Origin: Methanobrevibacter sp. | Lineage (GTDB): Archaea; Methanobacteriota; Methanobacteria; Methanobacteriales; Methanobacteriaceae | Assembly: GCF_030539555.1 (NCBI RefSeq) | Contig: NZ_JAUNXX010000002.1 | Span: forward strand, 1 to 64,000 | DNA: 64,000 nucleotides | Direction of reading: 5' to 3' | Shown: positions 38,442-47,915 of the stretch, one piece after another | Layout: the number at the start of each line of letters is the position of its first letter | Position numbering within the stretch: the stretch's first letter is position 1 | Translations under genes and position numbers: made by a program | The notes under the pieces: generated by a model | Databases searched by the model: none | The model's input: the letters and a program-made list of their open reading frames with translations, nothing else | Told to the model about the DNA's origin: nothing

Positions 38442-38732
38442 CTAAATTACAGTTACCTCCACATCTTCACCATCTTTAGGCTTATGAATAAACTCAATAA
38501 TGTCTTCTTCTACCTCATAAATATCAATTTCGATTGTTCCACCCAAATCACTTTCATCAAGAGAAACCAATAATTTAAATCCTGGTTTTCCAAAATATTC
38601 TGAAAAATCAACATTTAAAACTTCTCCTTCTGCAAAAATTCTATCGTAGGCAATTTCCAAAACATCATGAATTTTTACATTTTCTTTTAAGTAATTGATA
38701 GCTTCTTGTGTTGTTAACTCTAATTCTTTCAT
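38442..38732 (-). CDS. Small acidic protein, DUF2097-like (copy 1)
   Basis: A 96-residue protein, MKELELTTQEAINYLKENVKIHDVLEIAYDRIFAEGEVLNV and on. It alternates an N-terminal helix with a beta-rich acidic half. It is paralogous to the next gene along its full length (VHDVLE(I/V)xY(D/N)RIFAxGEVL). I believe this is the methanogen-specific DUF2097 family, of unknown function. The start is set by GGAG 9 nt upstream of the ATG; the longer frame would cover the promoter. Tail-to-tail with nrpR, sharing a small hairpin (CTGTAA/TTACAG, 38436-38452) across both stop codons. Confidence 0.6.
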   Translation of the reverse strand: MKELELTTQEAINYLKENVKIHDVLEIAYDRIFAEGEVLNVDFSEYFGKPGFKLLVSLDESDLGGTIEIDIYEVEEDIIEFIHKPKDGEDVEVTVI

Positions 38733-38855
38733 GTCAATCAACTCCGCAATAACTATAATTATATCCGCAAGCATATAAAAGTTTGTTTGTATACAATGAA
38801 ACAAATAATTTTTTCTATAAAAAATCAAATAAAATAATAAATATAAAAAAAGAGT

Positions 38856-39146
38856 TTAGATAACTTCGATGACGACTTCGTTACCATCATGAATATGGCG
38901 CATTTCCAATAAATCGTCTTCTATTTCTTTAAGGTCAATTTCAATAGACTGATTTAAGATTTCGCCTGTCAATTGCAAACCAATTCTTAGACCTTCACCA
39001 GTTACTTCATCTTCTTCAGTTATGCCCAATACTTCACCTGGAGCAAAAATACGATTATATGAGACTTCTAAAATGTCTGTTACATGAACATTATTTCTAA
39101 CATATTCAACTGCTTCATCAAAGGTCATTTGAATTTCTTTAACCAT
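38856..39146 (-). CDS. Small acidic protein, DUF2097-like (copy 2)
   Basis: A 96-residue paralogue of the gene downstream: MTFDEAVEYVRNNVHVTDILEVSYNRIFAPGEVLGI. The SYNRIFAPGEVLGI segment is the most conserved. It is followed by a short predicted beta region ending in VVIEVI. GGGCGAT precedes the ATG. Located right after fwdC, on the same strand, so it could be read through from the fwd operon; a terminator hairpin lies between. Confidence 0.6.
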   Translation of the reverse strand: MVKEIQMTFDEAVEYVRNNVHVTDILEVSYNRIFAPGEVLGITEEDEVTGEGLRIGLQLTGEILNQSIEIDLKEIEDDLLEMRHIHDGNEVVIEVI

Positions 39147-39186: not shown

Positions 39187-39205
39187 TAGGAATTATAAAT
39201 TCCTA
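39187..39205 (-). terminator. Hairpin at the end of the fwd operon
   Basis: TAGGAATT and AATTCCTA form a perfect 8-bp stem with a 3-nt loop overlapping the fwdC stop region. A CCTTTTCTTTTTTTTT run follows on the minus strand. Confidence 0.65.
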
Positions 39206-40068
39206 TATTCTCTAATTGAAGTATATTCGTCGTCAAGTTCGCCGTATGAAGATAATTTTTCTTTGTTTGCTTCAGCATCCAAGTATAAATTACCTTTACC
39301 GTTAAGACCAATATCTCCAGTATATTTAATATATTTACCTTCGAAAGTAGTTCCTTCAACTTCAGGATCAACAACTATACCATCGAGAACAAATCCTTCG
39401 AGTAATCTTCCGAGGAATCCGTGGATAACAATGTTACCGTTTTTCATTTGTCCACCAGGCCAACGGTTTACGTTACCGTCGATTTCAATAATACCTTTGG
39501 TCATGTGAATACCAGCTAAGATATCACAGTTACCTTTAACGTGGATTCTACCACCGGTTAAACATTCACCACATTGTTTACCAGCGTTACCGCCGACAAC
39601 AATTTGTCCTCCAGTCATACCTCTCCATTCACCAATGTAAGAAGCACCAGTGAATTCTTTGGTGTTTCCTTCAATTTCAAGGTAACCACCAGACATTTCT
39701 CTTCCAGCGTGAGCAGCTGCATCACCTTTAACGAGAATGGATCCGCCAGACATTTCAGCACCAACGTGTAAATCTACACTGCTGTTACATACGATGTTTC
39801 CACCACTCATTTTACAACCGATGTATTTTACTCTGTTCAAATCACCGTTGAGAATCATTTCAACTTCATCAGGTCCGTTAGCTTCTCCAACTACAGTAAT
39901 TTTGAAGAAGTCAGTGATTGGGAATCTTGAATTTCCAATAGGAACTTGATATTTTGCGAAATCAGCTTCAGTCCATGAATAAATTTCATCAGGAATTAAT
40001 TCATCAAATTCTAAAGCGATTGAAGAAGTTTTTATTTGATCAAATGTAATAGTTTTCAAATTAAACAC
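39193..40068 (-). CDS. fwdC: Formylmethanofuran dehydrogenase subunit C
   Basis: Structural subunit of the CO2-reducing, formyl-methanofuran-forming complex. The 291 residues are a right-handed beta helix built from repeated G-x-x-M-(S/T)-G-G-x-(I/L) turns ([55 protein letters not shown]), related to the GXGXG domain of glutamate synthase. It holds FwdA against FwdBD and anchors methanofuran. Stop-to-start spacing to fwdA is 2 nt. Confidence 0.95.
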
Positions 40069-40070
40069 CC

Positions 40071-41783
40071 CTATTTACCTTCAACATCTATTCTAATTGG
40101 GTTAGATACATAGTGGTCGTGTACTGGATAGTTTTCCCATTTTACTGAGTAGTATTGAGTGAAGAACGGCATGATGTTGTCGATTACTTTTTGTTCTTCT
40201 CTTTCCCATCCTTTTACGTTAACCCAAACATTTTGACTTTCTTTAACTTTAACGATTTCTTTATCTTTTACCAATATTTGACCATCTTTAATAGTGTATT
40301 CAGCTACATTGAAACCTTTTTCAATTTCATCAGCTTGTTTGGATGGATCAATATCATTAGGATTTATGTCATATACTGCAATGTCTGCTCTGTATCCAGG
40401 AGTAAGTGCACCTTTATCAGTGAATCCGTAGATTTTAGCTGGAGCAGCCCTAGTAATAGTTGCAATATCGTAGAAATCATATTCTCTTTCGAGAGTTGGG
40501 AGAAGAGTTCTTTTGTGTACCCATTTGTGAACTTCATTGTCACACATGTCTTGTCTTTTCTCATTACTCATCAACCAAGAGATAATTCTAGGATATCTAG
40601 TAAATGGTCCTGCGTTAGGGTGGTCAGTAGTTAAACATACTCTCCATGGGTCTTCGATTAAGAGGAATAATTCAAGACCGATAGCCCATTGTAATGTACT
40701 AACAGGACTTTTCTTGGAGTAAATACAAGGAATGATACCTGCAGCAGTTTCACATTCAATATCCTTGTTGGTCCATTTAAGACCGGATAATTTGAATAAA
40801 TCGTATTCCATAGGAGCGTCTGCAGTCATTGTAGTGGTTTCATCGAAGGTTACTTGACCGATATCACAAGTTATGTTGTCTTTTTTGTTGAAATGTTTAG
40901 CAACTTCTTCAGCACCGGAAGTTACATCTCTCCAGCTGTTACCTAAGTAAGAGTGGAACTGCAAGTGAGTCATGTGCATAACTTGGTCCCTGATTTCAGC
41001 TGCACCTTTACCTTTTTTAATGCCGTCCATAGCATCCATGGTTTCTAAGGTTGTAGGTACGTTACCTGGGTGTCCTAAGTCATTAGGGTGAATGTGTATA
41101 GAGTGAGGTAAGTTTAACATTTCGTTAGCTTTTGCTAAAGCGATAACAACTTCTTTTGAAGTTACGTCAAAGTATGGTGCTTTGTCGTTGAAACCGTGTA
41201 CGTTCATACCCCATCCCCATGCTTCACTTCCACATGGGTTTACAATTTTTACACCGTAACCTTTGGAGATTTTTAACCATGCTGCAATGAATGCTGCAAT
41301 GTCTTCAATATTATTATCTTTTGCGTATTCCATTACAAACCAGTTGTTACCGAATAATGGTAAAGCTGGAATATCTAATTGAGGAATAGTTGCAATTTCT
41401 TCGTGAGTGTGTTTTGCTTCAAGAGGAGGCATAGCTGCTTCTACAACAGTACCGTAACCTAATCTTGAGTATCTGTAACCAGTTGCAGGACAACTTGGAA
41501 TAGAGAAACCAGATTCAGATCTTAATACGCTAGTTTTTTGAGTAACACCTCTTCTGGAATCTTCAGGTCTGTATAATCTTCCTACTACTAATTTAGGACC
41601 TGCAACGTGTGCGTGAGGGTCAATACCTGCTGGCATGACAATTTTATCGGTAACGTCTAAGACTTTAGCATCTGCAGATACGCTATCTACAATTTTGCCA
41701 TCTTTGAACATGACATCCATCTTTTCCCCGTTAACTTCGTTAGCTGGGTCGTAGACTATACCATTTTTAAGAATATATTCCAT
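40071..41783 (-). CDS. fwdA: Formylmethanofuran dehydrogenase subunit A
   Basis: Amidohydrolase-type subunit with a dinuclear metal centre, which condenses formate from the FwdB site with methanofuran. 570 residues. Metal-ligand motif [12 protein letters not shown] near 56, further His/Lys/Asp ligands in [11 protein letters not shown] and [10 protein letters not shown]. The longest frame has 12 extra residues; AGGTGATATA directly before the chosen ATG settles the start. It follows fwdB with a 10-nt gap. Confidence 0.95.
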
Positions 41784-41793
41784 TATATCACCT

Positions 41794-43170
41794 TTAGAGT
41801 GCGTTTGGATTTGGCACATATTTTGGAGCTACGTTTGGCTCTTCTCTGAGTTTCATTACTCTTTCTTTCAATTCACGGACAATCCATTCGTCATCACGAC
41901 AGGTTTCTGGTTTGTCGATAGCTTTCTTCATGTAGATAGGAACTCCATCCATACGATAACTGGTACCGGCACATTCTACAGCAATGAATGAACCTGGCAA
42001 TACTACATCAGCGAGTTCTGTTGATGGACCCCAGTGAATATCGATTTGAATAACAGGAATGTTAGCTAAGTGTTGGTTTGCTCCATTAGGGAAGTGAGCA
42101 CCTGGGTCAGCTGCAATAACCATGAAACAGTCAGGTTCTTTCCTTACTAATAAATCGATGGTGTTGGTTTCTCCCATCATATATCTTGGGTAACCTCTAC
42201 AGTAGTCAACACCGAAAGCAAATCCACATTCGAATGCCATGAAAATGTTGAATCCGTTTACGTTAAAGTGACCTCTCATTGGAGTAAGACCCCATTTACT
42301 GTATTTGTTTAAGTCTTGTACCATTTTAATTGCAATATCAATGTTTCTTTGTTTTGATAAAGTGTGGGTTAAACCTAAACCGAAGAAGAGAACACCGAAT
42401 TCAGCGTTTTTCATTTCTTCTGCTAATTCATAAATATCTTCTTTAGGAATTCCAGAAATTACGTCTTGGTATAATTCTTTTCCTCTGAGAACTGCTCTAA
42501 TAGCATTGTAGAAACCGTAGTCTCCGTTTTGTTCAAATCCAATCCATTTGTCTGAACATTTTGCAGTATCTGAGAATTTTGGATCCATTGTTACAACAGT
42601 TCTGTCGAATCTTCCTCTTTGTCTGAAGTATCCACGACAGAATACAGCATATCTTGCCATGTGTCTTGGGTGAGAGTTCATAGCGTTACTTCCAGAGTAA
42701 ACAACCATGTCAGCTCTGTTTTGTACTTCACCTAAAGTTTGGATAGGGTAACCTGCGTTTTGTACAGCTTGCAGGGAAGGACCGTGACAGATAGTAGCTT
42801 GGTTATCCAATACAGCACCAATGTATTCACCTAATGCTACTCCTTCTTTCATACATTCGGTAGAAGTTTCAGACCAACCGTAAAATACCGGTCTGATGGA
42901 GTTAGCAATGTATTCAGCAGCTTTATCTAAAGCAGTATCCCAATCTACTTCTTTAAGTTCTCCGTTTTCATCCCTAATCATTGGAACAATTAATCTTTGA
43001 TCCATATCTTCCATAATTTTACTTGCACCTAATCTGCATGCGTGTCTTACAGCAACAACATGATTGTTTTTAACTAAGTAATCTAAGTCGTCACAGTTAC
43101 AACCACAGAAAGCACAGGTACAGTTTTCAACAATGTAATCATAATCAGTTACAGGTGGTTCATAAGTCAT
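41794..43170 (-). CDS. fwdB: Formylmethanofuran dehydrogenase subunit B (Cys form)
   Basis: Catalytic subunit that reduces CO2 to formate at a bis-pyranopterin W (or Mo) centre. 458 residues. [4Fe-4S] ligands in [10 protein letters not shown] at 17-26 and the RHACRLG Cys near 45. The metal-ligating Cys is in [11 protein letters not shown] near 128; selenocysteine would appear as an in-frame TGA, which is absent. Molybdopterin oxidoreductase fold through the rest. The ATG after GGGAGGAG is chosen over a TTG two codons earlier. Overlaps the fwdD stop by 11 nt. Confidence 0.94.
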
Positions 43171-43729
43171 GATCAATCAACTCCTCCCATTTACGTCCGT
43201 GATAAACAGGTAATTCACCTAAAGATTCCATGTTTTCAACAACATCGTCATCTTCTTCATCAACGTATTTTTTGTATACCCATCTCATTAAGTCAGCCAT
43301 GAGTAATACTTTTCTGTCTGTTTTTTCTACGGTACAGCGAATACCTTTGTAAGTAGGGTCAGAACAACAGTAAGTGTCGTGACTTACAATAGTGTTAGCC
43401 CATGGACCTTTACAAATGAATACAGTACCTTCGTGAGGTGCATCTCTTGAAACTGCACAGTTTACAACTACTTCACCGAAATCGGTTTTAACAAGTACAG
43501 TATCCCAGTTGTTTACACCTAATTTTGCCATATCTCTAGGATCCATGTAACAAGTACCTGAAGCGTTTTTGTATTCTTGTTTTAAGGTGGATCCTCTTTT
43601 TTTACAAGCACCTTGGTAGATGTCAGATCCGGTGTTTAACATACATTTTAAAACATCGGTAGTTCCTTCACCAGTGATTTTTACATCAGGCACTACAGGT
43701 TTTTCTAAATAAGTATTAGCATAATGCAT
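43160..43729 (-). CDS. fwdD: Formylmethanofuran dehydrogenase subunit D
   Basis: Carries the molybdopterin-dinucleotide-binding domain that completes the FwdB active site ([21 protein letters not shown], then [13 protein letters not shown]). At 189 residues it is longer than the roughly 130-residue core, with an acidic C-terminal part ([17 protein letters not shown]) that overlaps the fwdB start. GGGGATTATTAT precedes the ATG. Confidence 0.92.
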
Positions 43730-43741
43730 ATAATAATCCCC

Positions 43742-43972
43742 CTATTCTAACCATATAGCATTTACTGGGCAAAACATTTGACATGTTCCACATTTTTCAC
43801 ATTTTTCAGGACTGAAAAGTTTAATAAATCCGTTTTCTACCATCATAATAACTTCTTCAGTCTTTGCACCATTACCACCAGCATTTTCCGGACTGATAGC
43901 TGCATTAACAGGACAAGCAATTACACAAATCCCGCATCCTAAACAATTATCTTGTTCTACTTTAAGTTCCAT
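43742..43972 (-). CDS. fwdG: Formylmethanofuran dehydrogenase subunit G (ferredoxin)
   Basis: Small 2[4Fe-4S] ferredoxin, 76 residues, that passes electrons to FwdB. Clusters: CLGCGICVIACP at 10-21 and CEKCGTCQMFCP near 58-69. The start is the internal ATG with AGGTGATTT ahead of it, which gives MELKVEQDN. Confidence 0.92.
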   Translation of the reverse strand: MELKVEQDNCLGCGICVIACPVNAAISPENAGGNGAKTEEVIMMVENGFIKLFSPEKCEKCGTCQMFCPVNAIWLE

Positions 43973-43981
43973 CCAAATCAC

Positions 43982-45079
43982 CTAGTCTTTAATAGCGTCT
44001 AAAGCTTCTTTCCAAGTAGCTGAGTTTATAGGAGTGTGATCAATTGCAGTTCTTTTAACTGTAATAGCACCGTTAGGACATGCATTTGCACATGCTTTAC
44101 ATTTAATACAGTAATCAGCATTAACAATAACATGTTCCATTCTGGAACCAGGACCGGTTGATACAGGGAATGCTAAAGCATTACAACTACAAATATCTAC
44201 ACAAGCACCACAAGCTTGACATTTGTCTTGGTCTACTTCTATAGTTCCTTCAAATGGTTTTTTGTGTTTTGCTGCATCAGTAGGACATACTCCTTCACAC
44301 CATCCGCAGTATACACATGCATCTGAATCAATAACAGAGTTTCCGGTAACTACTGCTTTTGCAGGGTCTAAGTCATATTCTCCGTAAGAACAAGCTCTAC
44401 ATAGTGCTTTGATAGCTTTAGTAGGACAAGATTTTTTACATACAAGACAATATACACATTTCTCTTTGTCTATGACAATAGATTCTTTTCCGGTTTCACT
44501 GTCAACAACTATAGCTTCTGCAGGACATAATTCTTGGCATACACCACAGTAAATACAGTCATCTTCATTTACTTCAATTTCACCAGTTACTAAGTCTGCA
44601 CGACTTGGTAAAACTCTTTCAATGACGATTGCATCACGAGGACATGCAACTTCACATCTTTTACAGTAAATACATTCATCATCATCAATTTCTGAGAAAG
44701 CATTATAATGAGGATATGCTTCAATTTCGCGGATAGGAACATCATTAATGGTTAATACTAATGCATCAACAGGACATAATCCGCTGCACATACCGCACAA
44801 TACACATTTACTTTCGTCAATTTGAATTCTTTGAACATCAAAATCATCTTTGAAGTTTTGAGCAATCTTTTCATGACCACTGAAGTAAATGTCATTTGAA
44901 AGTCTGTGACGAGCATCGACAGCAATTGAATTTAATGTAATTGCTTCAACAGGACAAGTGGACTCACAAATTCCACAACCTAAACAGGTTTGGTCATTGA
45001 AAGTTAATTTCCTTACTTCTTCAGCATCTCTTGTGATGTCAAAGTTATTGTCATTAACCTCTTTTAAATTTCTAATCAT
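43982..45079 (-). CDS. fwdF: Polyferredoxin FwdF
   Basis: Electron wire of the Fwd complex. 365 residues with eight CxxCxxCxxxC motifs: CLGCGICESTC, CVLCGMCSGLC, CIYCKRCEVAC, CIYCGVCQELC, CVYCLVCKKSC, CVYCGWCEGVC, CQACGACVDIC and CIKCKACANAC. A further CRAC pair lies between the fifth and sixth. That agrees with the 8 x [4Fe-4S] content known for FwdF. It abuts fwdG with no gap, and fwdH ends 2 nt upstream. Confidence 0.95.
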   Translation of the reverse strand: MIRNLKEVNDNNFDITRDAEEVRKLTFNDQTCLGCGICESTCPVEAITLNSIAVDARHRLSNDIYFSGHEKIAQNFKDDFDVQRIQIDESKCVLCGMCSGLCPVDALVLTINDVPIREIEAYPHYNAFSEIDDDECIYCKRCEVACPRDAIVIERVLPSRADLVTGEIEVNEDDCIYCGVCQELCPAEAIVVDSETGKESIVIDKEKCVYCLVCKKSCPTKAIKALCRACSYGEYDLDPAKAVVTGNSVIDSDACVYCGWCEGVCPTDAAKHKKPFEGTIEVDQDKCQACGACVDICSCNALAFPVSTGPGSRMEHVIVNADYCIKCKACANACPNGAITVKRTAIDHTPINSATWKEALDAIKD

Positions 45080-45080
45080 A

Positions 45081-45530
45081 TTAAATCTCCAAAATTTTTA
45101 TAGAATCAGTTGGGCACTCATCTTCACAAAGCTGACAACCGCAACATTGTATGGAGTCTGCATGTGCTTGTAACGATTCTAATTGAATAGCTTTCATTGA
45201 ACATGCATTTACACATAATCCACAACCAATACAAGAATCTTTTATAGTTACTTCGAAATTTCTTTCTTGGCAAATATTCACAATTTTTCGACTCTGTTCT
45301 GGTTCATCAAATATAACTTCAGCCATTTTCAAAAAATCCCTGGGATAAAGTTCCACTATAGTTCTTGCAACATCGATTGAGTTCCAGGATAAGTTGCTGC
45401 CATTCAAATAGTGTGAAATGGTAGACCTGTCAACTCCCAACTCATTTGCAATCGCCTGGTGACTTTCACCGGCATCCTTTAACTTGACTGCCGCCAAATA
45501 TTTCAAACCAGATGCAATATGTTTTGGCAT
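45081..45530 (-). CDS. fwdH: FwdH: helix-turn-helix fused to a 2[4Fe-4S] ferredoxin
   Basis: First gene of the fwd operon. Residues about 1-50 form a clear helix-turn-helix (LKDAGESHQAIANELGVDRS, then TISHYLNGSNLS), about 50-95 a linker, and about 95-149 a ferredoxin with CIGCGLCVNAC and CCGCQLCEDEC. In Methanothermobacter fwdH also heads the operon. The DNA-binding half plus clusters suggests a redox- or metal-responsive autoregulator as well as, or instead of, an electron carrier; this is inference. A perfect palindrome sits just before its ribosome-binding site (GGTGG), which also sets the start at the ATG four codons inside the longest frame. Confidence 0.88.
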   Translation of the reverse strand: MPKHIASGLKYLAAVKLKDAGESHQAIANELGVDRSTISHYLNGSNLSWNSIDVARTIVELYPRDFLKMAEVIFDEPEQSRKIVNICQERNFEVTIKDSCIGCGLCVNACSMKAIQLESLQAHADSIQCCGCQLCEDECPTDSIKILEI

Positions 45531-45540
45531 TTGAACCACC

Positions 45541-45559
45541 ATGTGTAATGATTACACAT
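45541..45559 (-). promoter_or_regulatory. Perfect palindrome at the fwd operon start
   Basis: ATGTGTAAT-G-ATTACACAT, 9-bp arms around one base. A TATA-like box (AATATATTTATATAAG, minus strand, about 45565-45582) places the expected transcription start within or next to the palindrome, which is the position of a repressor site. Confidence 0.75.
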
Positions 45560-45619
45560 ATGTTTACTTATATAAATATATTTGCCTAAAAGAATTAAGA
45601 CACAATCTTTATATATAAC

Positions 45620-45634
45620 TGTGTGGATACTACA
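45620..45634. promoter_or_regulatory. Degenerate copy of the fwd/mobB palindrome
   Basis: TGTGTGGATACTACA resembles the central TGTGTAGTTACTACA of the mobB-side palindrome, with two mismatches. It lies between the two promoters, next to a TATATATA stretch. Confidence 0.4.
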
Positions 45635-45739
45635 ACAAAAAAATTCAAATAAAAGTTATAAATCAATATATAAAACTATAAATCATTCAAATTATTTAAT
45701 TAATAAAAATAAAAAATAATAAGCATTTATATTAAAATT

Positions 45740-45760
45740 AAATATCGATTATCGATATTT
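45740..45760. promoter_or_regulatory. Second-type palindrome AAATATCGA/TCGATATTT
   Basis: Perfect 9-bp arms with a TTA centre in the middle of the fwd-mobB gap. A further half-site ATATCGA follows about 20 bp away (45771-45777). ATATCG/CGATAT half-sites also flank the TATA box before fdhD. No gene is seen in the 413-nt gap 45531-45943. Confidence 0.55.
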
Positions 45761-45864
45761 AAAATGGTTTATATCGAGTATTTTTTAATAAAAAATTATG
45801 AAAAAGTATTAAAAAAATGAAAAAAAATCTCAGAAAGTGTCAATTTTTAGGCCATCCAAAATTA

Positions 45865-45883
45865 ATGTGTAGTTACTACACAT
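45865..45883 (+). promoter_or_regulatory. Perfect palindrome upstream of mobB
   Basis: ATGTGTAGT-T-ACTACACAT, same architecture and nearly the same arms as the site before fwdH, 306 bp away. It lies about 60 nt before the mobB start and next to an A/T-rich CATAAAAAATAG box. Confidence 0.7.
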
Positions 45884-45943
45884 CACATAAAAAATAGTAT
45901 TATTAATGTTGAAATACTAATAATATTATAGGGGGAAAATGAG

Positions 45944-46981
45944 ATGAAAATCGCATCTATTGTAGGTAAAAAGAATACCGGAAAAACTTCACTAACAGTG
46001 AAGGTAATTAGTGAACTAACAAAAAGAGGTTATAATGTTGCTTCCATAAAACATTCCCACCATTCAATAGAGATGGATAAGGAAAACACAGACACATGGA
46101 AACATAAACAGGCCGGAGCAAATTTGGTTGTCGGTGTGGGATCAACTACTTTTTTCAATGCGCGAAAAGAGCATGACCTCAATAGAATATTATACTTACT
46201 GAAACATTTCGACAATTTTGATTATGTAATAATTGAAGGCTACAAAAGCTACAACTATCCGAAAATCATCACTTCCCCTGAAGTCAGAGACGAATACACA
46301 ATAAAAGAAGTGGATTCATTCACAATAGATGATGAAGGCATTAGAGAACTTGCAGACTTAATAGAACAGAGAGGTCACGACATTGTGGACACCCTATTTG
46401 CAAACAACTGCGGATACAACAATGGTGAAGTTATCGCAGGAGATATACGTAACGGAAACTTAAGTGTCGAAAATCTTGACGATGTCTGCTGCTACATGTC
46501 AATAGACGATAAAGTTGTTGGACTGAACAGATTTGTCAGTGATTACTTAAAGCAAAATATTTTGGGAATCATTAACACATTAAATCTTGATGATTATGGT
46601 GTTGAGGATGTTAAAAAGATTGAATTGATTGTGCCCGATTCACAGTCAAGGCCCAATAAAGCAAATAAAAGAACTACTGTTTTAATCAATGGCAAAAATC
46701 TTGTGATAAATAAATTTACAATGGACATTGTAACAAATTCAATTGCTGCAATGGTTAACTCCCTTAAAACACAGGAGGATGTAAATTCAATAGATATCGA
46801 AATATCAGGTATAAGTGATGACAATCTGATTGATGCTGAAATTGTCCTTAAAACAAACGGTAATGATGTAAAAATCAATGAATTCACCAGAGGAATTTTA
46901 AAAGAAACTATTTTTGCAATCATCAGTACTCTAAAAACAGATGACAAAATCAGCGATATAAAAATTAAGGTGGAAGAGTGA
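45944..46981 (+). CDS. mobB: MobB-type GTPase fused to three small repeats
   Basis: Residues 1-150 match MobB, the P-loop GTPase that assists guanine-dinucleotide attachment to the molybdenum/tungsten pterin: [12 protein letters not shown] at 7-18, [31 protein letters not shown] linker with [12 protein letters not shown] follows. Residues about 193-345 contain three copies of a 38-residue unit: [40 protein letters not shown] and [20 protein letters not shown], each followed by L(N/K), a charged turn and an IxIxI strand. I know no function for this unit. GGGGG precedes the ATG. Four nt before moaA. Confidence 0.88.
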
Positions 46982-46985
46982 TTGG

Positions 46986-47915
46986 ATGGTTGATGAATAT
47001 GTAAAAGATAACTTTGAAAGGCCAATAATATCACTCAGAATAACCATTACAAACAGATGCAATGAAAATTGCATTTATTGCCATCATGACGGCATGGTTT
47101 CTTCGAAAGATGAAATGACACCCGATGAAATTTACAAAATATGTCAAATAGCTAAAAAATTGGGAGTTAAAAAGATTAGGCTTTCAGGCGGTGACCCGCT
47201 GGTCAGAAAAGATATCGTGGAAATTGTTGAAAAAATCGGCAGTCTGGATTTCAAGGATATTTCTCTTACCACAAATGGCGTTCTGCTTGAAAAATATGCT
47301 GAAGGCTTAAAGAATGCCGGCCTCAACAGGGTAAACGTAAGTTTGGACACCCTCGATCATGATACCTACAAATTTGTTACAAAAAGAGATTATTTGGATA
47401 AAGCCAAAACAGGCATATTGAAAGCTGTTGAAGTTGGAATGAATCCTGTTAAAATCAACATGGTAGTAATGAAAGACCTCAATCAAAACGAAGTAAAAAA
47501 TATGTTTAAATTCTGTAAAGATAATAACATGGTGCTTCAATTAATTGAATTGATTGAAAGTGAAAACTGTGATGACGATAAATTCAATGCCGAATACCAC
47601 TACCCATTAGATTCCATTGAAAAAAGATTAATTGATATGGCTGATAATGTGAGAGAACGTAAGTTTATGCAAGGCCGTAAAAAATATTACATAAACGGTG
47701 GAGAAATCGAGGTAGTTAAACCTATGGACAACACTAAATTTTGCGCAAATTGCTCCAGATTAAGGATAACACCTGACGGGAAAATCAAACCCTGCCTGCT
47801 TAGAAACGATAATCTTGTTGAGTTGATTTCACACATCAGAAATGGTGAAAGTGATGAACAGTTAGAAGAAGTTTTCATGAAAGGTATCGCCAACCGTGAG
47901 CCTTACAATACCTGA
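46986..47915 (+). CDS. moaA: GTP 3',8-cyclase MoaA
   Basis: Radical-SAM enzyme for the first step of molybdopterin synthesis. 309 residues. N-terminal cluster CNENCIYC at 25-32 (CxxxCxxC), GGDPLVR, and the second C-terminal cluster with [14 protein letters not shown] then PCLLR (CxxC-x13-C). Co-transcribed with mobB. Together they would supply pterin cofactor to the Fwd and Fdh enzymes encoded on either side. Confidence 0.94.

Follow-up and report, generated by a model that had tools for sequence, protein, structure and literature searches.

Our analyses of the fwd/mobB region of a Methanobrevibacter sp. genome suggest, with a probability of roughly two in three, that FwdH, the product of the first gene of the fwd operon, is not a structural subunit of Fwd but an autoregulatory iron-sulfur (Fe-S) transcription factor of this operon, whose helix-turn-helix (HTH) dimer would bind the palindrome TGTGTnnTnAnnACACA and whose ferredoxin domain would act as the sensor. 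Formylmethanofuran dehydrogenase (Fwd) opens the pathway from CO2 to methane and is very rich in [4Fe-4S] clusters. If correct, this reading gives the Methanobacteriales, including the gut and rumen members of Methanobrevibacter, a candidate redox or iron switch for the initial step in reducing CO2, and the exact candidate operators of FwdH, which are now defined, are open to immediate testing. A literature search found no paper describing FwdH as a regulator.

The fwd operon of the window (viz. the whole stretch of 64,000 nucleotides that was analysed) has the order fwdHFGDBAC and occupies positions 39193-45530 of the minus strand, with fwdH (45081-45530) as its first gene. The open reading frame (ORF) called for fwdH extends over 45081-45542; the start conserved across the order is the ATG inside this ORF at 45530, with GGTGG in front of it, and an alternative start at the ATG at 45542, which overlaps the proximal palindrome described below, is possible. 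The first enzyme gene after fwdH is that of the polyferredoxin FwdF (43982-45079, minus strand; NF042909), and the remaining genes fwdG, D, B, A, and C (39193-43981, minus strand) were named by inspection from their ORFs and sequences. A tandem pair of DUF2097 genes is found directly after fwdC (38442-39146). Divergent from the operon, on the plus strand, are mobB (45944-46981; PF03205, TIGR00176) and moaA (46986-47915; TIGR02668, NF001199), which together span 45944-47915 and make the tungsten/molybdenum cofactor. The MobB domain is followed by a C-terminal extension of ~115 aa (46634-46981), consisting of two similar segments without a Pfam match, and a separate 86-aa ORF after mobB in the related locus L067 resembles this extension. 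The fwd order of Methanothermobacter, in comparison to that of the window, is fwdHFGDACB (PMC3087415).

FwdH is a protein of 149 aa that combines a Cro/C1-like HTH in its N-terminal part (residues 24-43; 45402-45461, minus strand), located from the alignment and an AlphaFold model, with a C-terminal 2[4Fe-4S] ferredoxin domain (residues 97-149; 45084-45242, minus strand), located from Pfam and the alignment. The ferredoxin domain matches Fer4 (8.8e-10) and contains two CxxCxxCxxxC motifs, whose eight predicted cluster cysteines (100, 103, 106, 110, 129, 132, 135, and 139) are all invariant in an alignment of 34 FwdH sequences; an extra cysteine, Cys130, is at least 90% conserved in the same alignment. 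When FwdH alone was searched, its Pfam matches to HTH models were weak and HTH_3 remained below the gathering score, and the model PF01381 (HTH_3, Cro/C1) was matched by 28 of the 28 family members that were searched (E <= 0.01, best 2.9e-10). The architecture described for the first fwd gene in the initial annotation is thus borne out. The AlphaFold model has a pLDDT of 93.1 and a pTM of 0.85. A Foldseek search with the modelled HTH returned XRE proteins among its matches, but these were weak (E >= 0.5, TM ~0.35), and the lack of a confident whole-domain structural match in this search weighs against FwdH being a regulator. Outside the class, a scan of our collection and of one other archaeal phylum yielded, among those listed, matches at the level of the ferredoxin domain only.

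FwdH has been named as a component of FwdA-DFGH, and its position as the first operon gene and its ferredoxin domain would also suit a protein that transfers electrons at the periphery of Fwd or helps to assemble it (PMC3087415), in which the HTH would be a protein-interaction module and the palindromes would be unrelated to it. We consider this improbable. Few stretches of FwdH are as conserved as the predicted DNA-recognition helix, with R35, S36, T37, S39, H40, Y41, N43, G44, and N46 invariant in the 34 sequences, and operator-like palindromes occur at fixed positions in the fwdH promoter. Furthermore, deposited assemblies (5t5i, 7bkb, and 9sw6) contain other Fwd subunits, but the ferredoxin part is the only one in FwdH for which a matching PDB chain was found, and a regulator fits this pattern better than a subunit does; conversely, if FwdH is a dedicated Fe-S regulator, the lack of a PDB chain matching its full length is explained.

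Two exact 19-bp palindromes occur in the window, as the initial annotation had stated: a proximal palindrome (ATGTGTAATGATTACACAT, 45541-45559) and a third palindrome (ATGTGTAGTTACTACACAT, 45865-45883), the latter ~352 bp from the fwdH start and ~62 bp before mobB. Within 3 mismatches these are the sole matches in the window, both with 0 mismatches; shuffled versions of the window gave a mean of 0.24 matches, and 3 of 100 shuffles reached two matches within 3 mismatches. In the whole genome (2.08 Mb), no other match has fewer than 3 mismatches. The fwdH TATA box (TTTATATAA, 45568-45576, minus strand), recognized from the sequence and from an order-wide alignment, lies 8 bp upstream of the proximal palindrome, and from this spacing the palindrome should cover the fwdH transcription start, which agrees with the placement originally proposed for it; a literature search found no transcription-start map for fwd. 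A site over the fwdH start suggests a place for repression. The weaker copy that had been reported between the two exact ones corresponds to a degenerate distal palindrome (GTTGTAGTATCCACACA on the minus strand, 45620-45636), ~78 bp from the proximal site, which has mismatches at 3 of the 12 core bases and whose position is conserved order-wide. Adjoining it is a conserved TATATATAA block (45610-45618), which may be a TATA box oriented opposite to fwdH; the segment 45597-45618, in which TATATATAA is accompanied by a TTTCTATTT-like block, is best read as a BRE/TATA pair facing away. This pair was considered as a possible divergent promoter at the distal site, but in Methanothermobacter-like genomes transcription from it would be antisense to the gene that precedes.

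A match to fwdH was found in 112 of the 151 genomes of the order, one of these being a ferredoxin-only match, and the arrangement of two sites at fwdH is seen in three families of the Methanobacteriales. The spacing between the proximal and distal sites in 77 loci, many of them closely related and hence not independent, is 78 bp in 56, 77 bp in 14, and 79 bp in 5 (75/77 within 77-79 bp). In a non-redundant profile (49 distal and 21 proximal sites), the half-sites carry strong information, which all but vanishes in the 35 bp past the distal site, where conservation stops sharply, the DNA farther out being unconserved. In G151, a genome of another order and the sole class member examined from outside the Methanobacteriales, TTGTAGTAACTACAT and TTGTAGTAAAAACACAT are found at the matching places. 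The palindrome, whose absence upstream of fwdH and mobB in related genomes had been named as a ground for abandoning the idea of a FwdH operator, is present: throughout the order it precedes fwdH, and in genus g1 (Methanobrevibacter-type) it also precedes mobB. The ~230 bp between the distal and third sites held no conserved RNA or small gene and are unconserved except for one element, TAATACTTTT...TATTAC, which is conserved in the intergenic DNA of g1 at about -300 of fwdH.

The right half of the proximal palindrome (ACACA) is intact in 76 of the 77 loci, whereas the left half has decayed in ~20 of them, and this decay counts against the proposed regulator. The same pattern bears upon the explanation that the proximal palindrome, which directly precedes the fwdH ribosome-binding site, forms an RNA hairpin in the fwdH leader that controls translation. 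Its location immediately 5' of the ribosome-binding site speaks for such a hairpin, but loss of one half destroys a hairpin and leaves a DNA half-site in place, and two more copies of the palindrome lie outside the expected fwdH transcript; we regard this explanation as extremely improbable.

The exact core TGTGTnnTnAnnACACA is present in 88 of the 151 genomes, and the control, the same pattern read backwards, gave 10 matches in two genomes. Among the exact core sites listed in the order, 71 of 75 are at the fwdH/mobB locus. Judged from the sequences, the palindrome is specific to its locus, lies at the promoter of fwdH and is conserved with this gene, as would be expected of an autoregulator. 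The four listed off-locus exact sites, in four relatives, were considered as members of a regulon and set aside, as they look like chance occurrences: three are inside ORFs, and the fourth lies in intergenic DNA flanked by unrelated genes. A wider regulon was also sought through sites with 3 mismatches in the window's own genome; the one at the por operon (L003) proved to be part of another conserved element, TTTATAATGATTA, and was therefore left out of the count of FwdH-type sites. This element, TTTATAATGATTA(T)ACA followed by GGAGG, is strongly conserved at the start of the por operon in three families (L003 1495-1530; L248-L277) and is a different regulatory site, possibly one bound by another regulator.

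The motif is nearly exclusive to a locus that holds an HTH gene and is lost along with that gene, and on these grounds also we consider it unlikely that the palindromes are operators of some other, unlinked regulator, with fwdH as just another of its target genes. The gene of an HTH regulator can lie far from the sites that the protein binds, the contact of FwdH with DNA is deduced from sequence, and the iron-type box described below indicates that another regulator probably acts here in many g1 genomes. However, if the regulator were a global one, other sites should exist, and in the genomes of family f3 (Methanothermobacter-like) whose loci were read, the exact sites found genome-wide are all accounted for at fwdH. 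In genus g12, 20 of 20 genomes are without fwdH and without an exact site. The absence of the motif in g12 and in some g1 genomes was rejected as an independent test of FwdH, because mobB and the locus are gone too; since mobB is lost along with fwdH, this absence shows linkage of the motif to the locus and not to FwdH alone.

The palindrome noted earlier before mobB-moaA is indeed present, and in g1 it lies upstream of mobB, but its position proved to be tied to fwdH. Throughout g1, the third site is 350-364 bp from the fwdH start, and in those g1 genomes that have extra DNA before mobB, it keeps its place at fwdH, and mobB is preceded, at ~60-125 bp, by an additional exact copy. In some g1 genomes, the DNA inserted between the third site and mobB holds a FwdF paralogue (NF042909, 416 bits), a polyferredoxin gene seen between fwdH and mobB at L109 2002-3015 and L108 4518-5534. 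In genus g9, mobB-moaA is codirectional with fwdH rather than divergent, and upstream sites are nonetheless present, as tandem palindromes 24 bp apart at ~-386 and ~-410 of fwdH (loci L067, L071, L074, and L075). As the third site is fixed relative to fwdH and not to mobB, it belongs first to the fwdH control region; that mobB has a copy of its own where it is separated from fwdH speaks for mobB as a second real target. The palindrome at mobB is upstream of a probable BRE/TATA, which is a place where archaeal activators bind, whereas at fwdH it is over the predicted start.

The third palindrome of the window is adjoined by a degenerate box (TAGGTnnACCTA, 45848-45859) that is intact in many relatives. 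Its intact form, TTTAGGTnnACCTAAA, is an inverted repeat, which we take to be an iron box of the DtxR/MntR type; it occurs beside the third palindrome with 0-2 mismatches in 32 of 69 listed site rows, which include other genera and duplicate sites. In the window's own genome, the TTTAGGTnnACCTAAA core has ten matches, compared with one for the control, and it precedes two feoB genes (L160 and L165; named by inspection). In many g1 genomes, the fwd/mobB control region thus probably carries an iron-type repressor box.

In the mechanism that we propose, the Cro/C1-like HTH of FwdH would bind TGTGTnnTnAnnACACA as a dimer, and FwdH on the proximal site, at the fwdH transcription start, would block initiation. 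A second candidate FwdH site lies 77-79 bp upstream and a third ~350 bp upstream, in Methanobrevibacter just before the divergent mobB-moaA, and FwdH bound at these sites may cooperate. The 2[4Fe-4S] domain would be the sensor, its reduction state, or the presence or loss of its clusters, altering DNA binding, and expression of fwd and of the cofactor genes would then track ferredoxin redox or Fe-S status. Since Fwd is packed with [4Fe-4S] clusters and a two-cluster ferredoxin regulator would be encoded in the same operon, redox or Fe-S status is the simplest signal, and sensing of this kind would fit both the ferredoxin domain and the adjacent iron-type box. Only tentatively, and at less than even odds, do we extend this to a broader picture, in which an operon-encoded Fe-S sensor governs Fwd in the Methanobacteria through two or three operators of fixed spacing, possibly with DNA looping, represses fwd, acts on mobB-moaA from upstream, and does so jointly with an iron-type repressor in many Methanobrevibacter-type genomes.

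The initial annotation had also allowed that FwdH responds to tungsten or molybdenum (W/Mo). FwdH appears to control mobB-moaA, genes of the tungsten/molybdenum cofactor, and Tfx at fmd provides a Mo/W precedent (PMC3087415). However, Pfam searches with the single sequence and with the 28-member family found neither a metal-oxyanion (molybdate/tungstate-binding) domain nor a Tfx-family match in FwdH, and none of the four listed off-locus exact sites is at an evident metal-transport gene. The tungsten enzyme (Fwd) is, moreover, described in a review as being formed constitutively (PMC3087415), which counts against the proposed autoregulator as well. We therefore regard a W/Mo response as very improbable, and what is retained of the earlier reading, on the strength of the conserved palindromes, is a locus-specific regulator of fwd and mobB-moaA, most plausibly FwdH.

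An autoregulatory Fe-S factor of this type has partial counterparts among several known systems. Controller proteins of the C.Esp1396I type and lambda CI resemble FwdH in their Cro/C1 HTH, to which the profile matches are weak, and, as proposed for FwdH, in their autoregulatory palindromic operators, and they differ in being without an Fe-S domain and in having other targets. IscR-type regulators couple Fe-S status to DNA binding and autoregulate an Fe-S gene operon, as is proposed here for FwdH, but they are bacterial and of an unrelated fold (Rrf2, with one [2Fe-2S] cluster). The methanogen redox regulator MsvR has, to our knowledge, no ferredoxin domain. Its DNA binding, first characterised in Methanothermobacter, is redox-sensitive and, unlike what we propose for FwdH, is described as modulated by cysteine residues (PMC3729527). 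Tfx, the fmd regulator of Methanothermobacter, is, as proposed for FwdH, a DNA-binding protein whose gene lies next to a formylmethanofuran dehydrogenase operon (PMC3087415); FwdH differs from it in lacking the Pfam Tfx match and in carrying predicted Fe-S clusters, and among the f3 genomes that were read, the exact FwdH-type palindrome turned up nowhere but at fwdH. In design, the nearest known system is the cyanobacterial CnfR/PatB, in which an XRE-type HTH is fused to a ferredoxin-like domain with two 4Fe-4S sites and which controls a large Mo-enzyme gene cluster (nif), as FwdH may do at fwd (PMC8510180). CnfR has the reverse domain order, with its clusters N-terminal and its HTH C-terminal, serves another enzyme in another domain of life, and is an activator, whereas the FwdH site over the transcription start suggests repression; hence, the resemblance between them is a likeness of design and not of membership.
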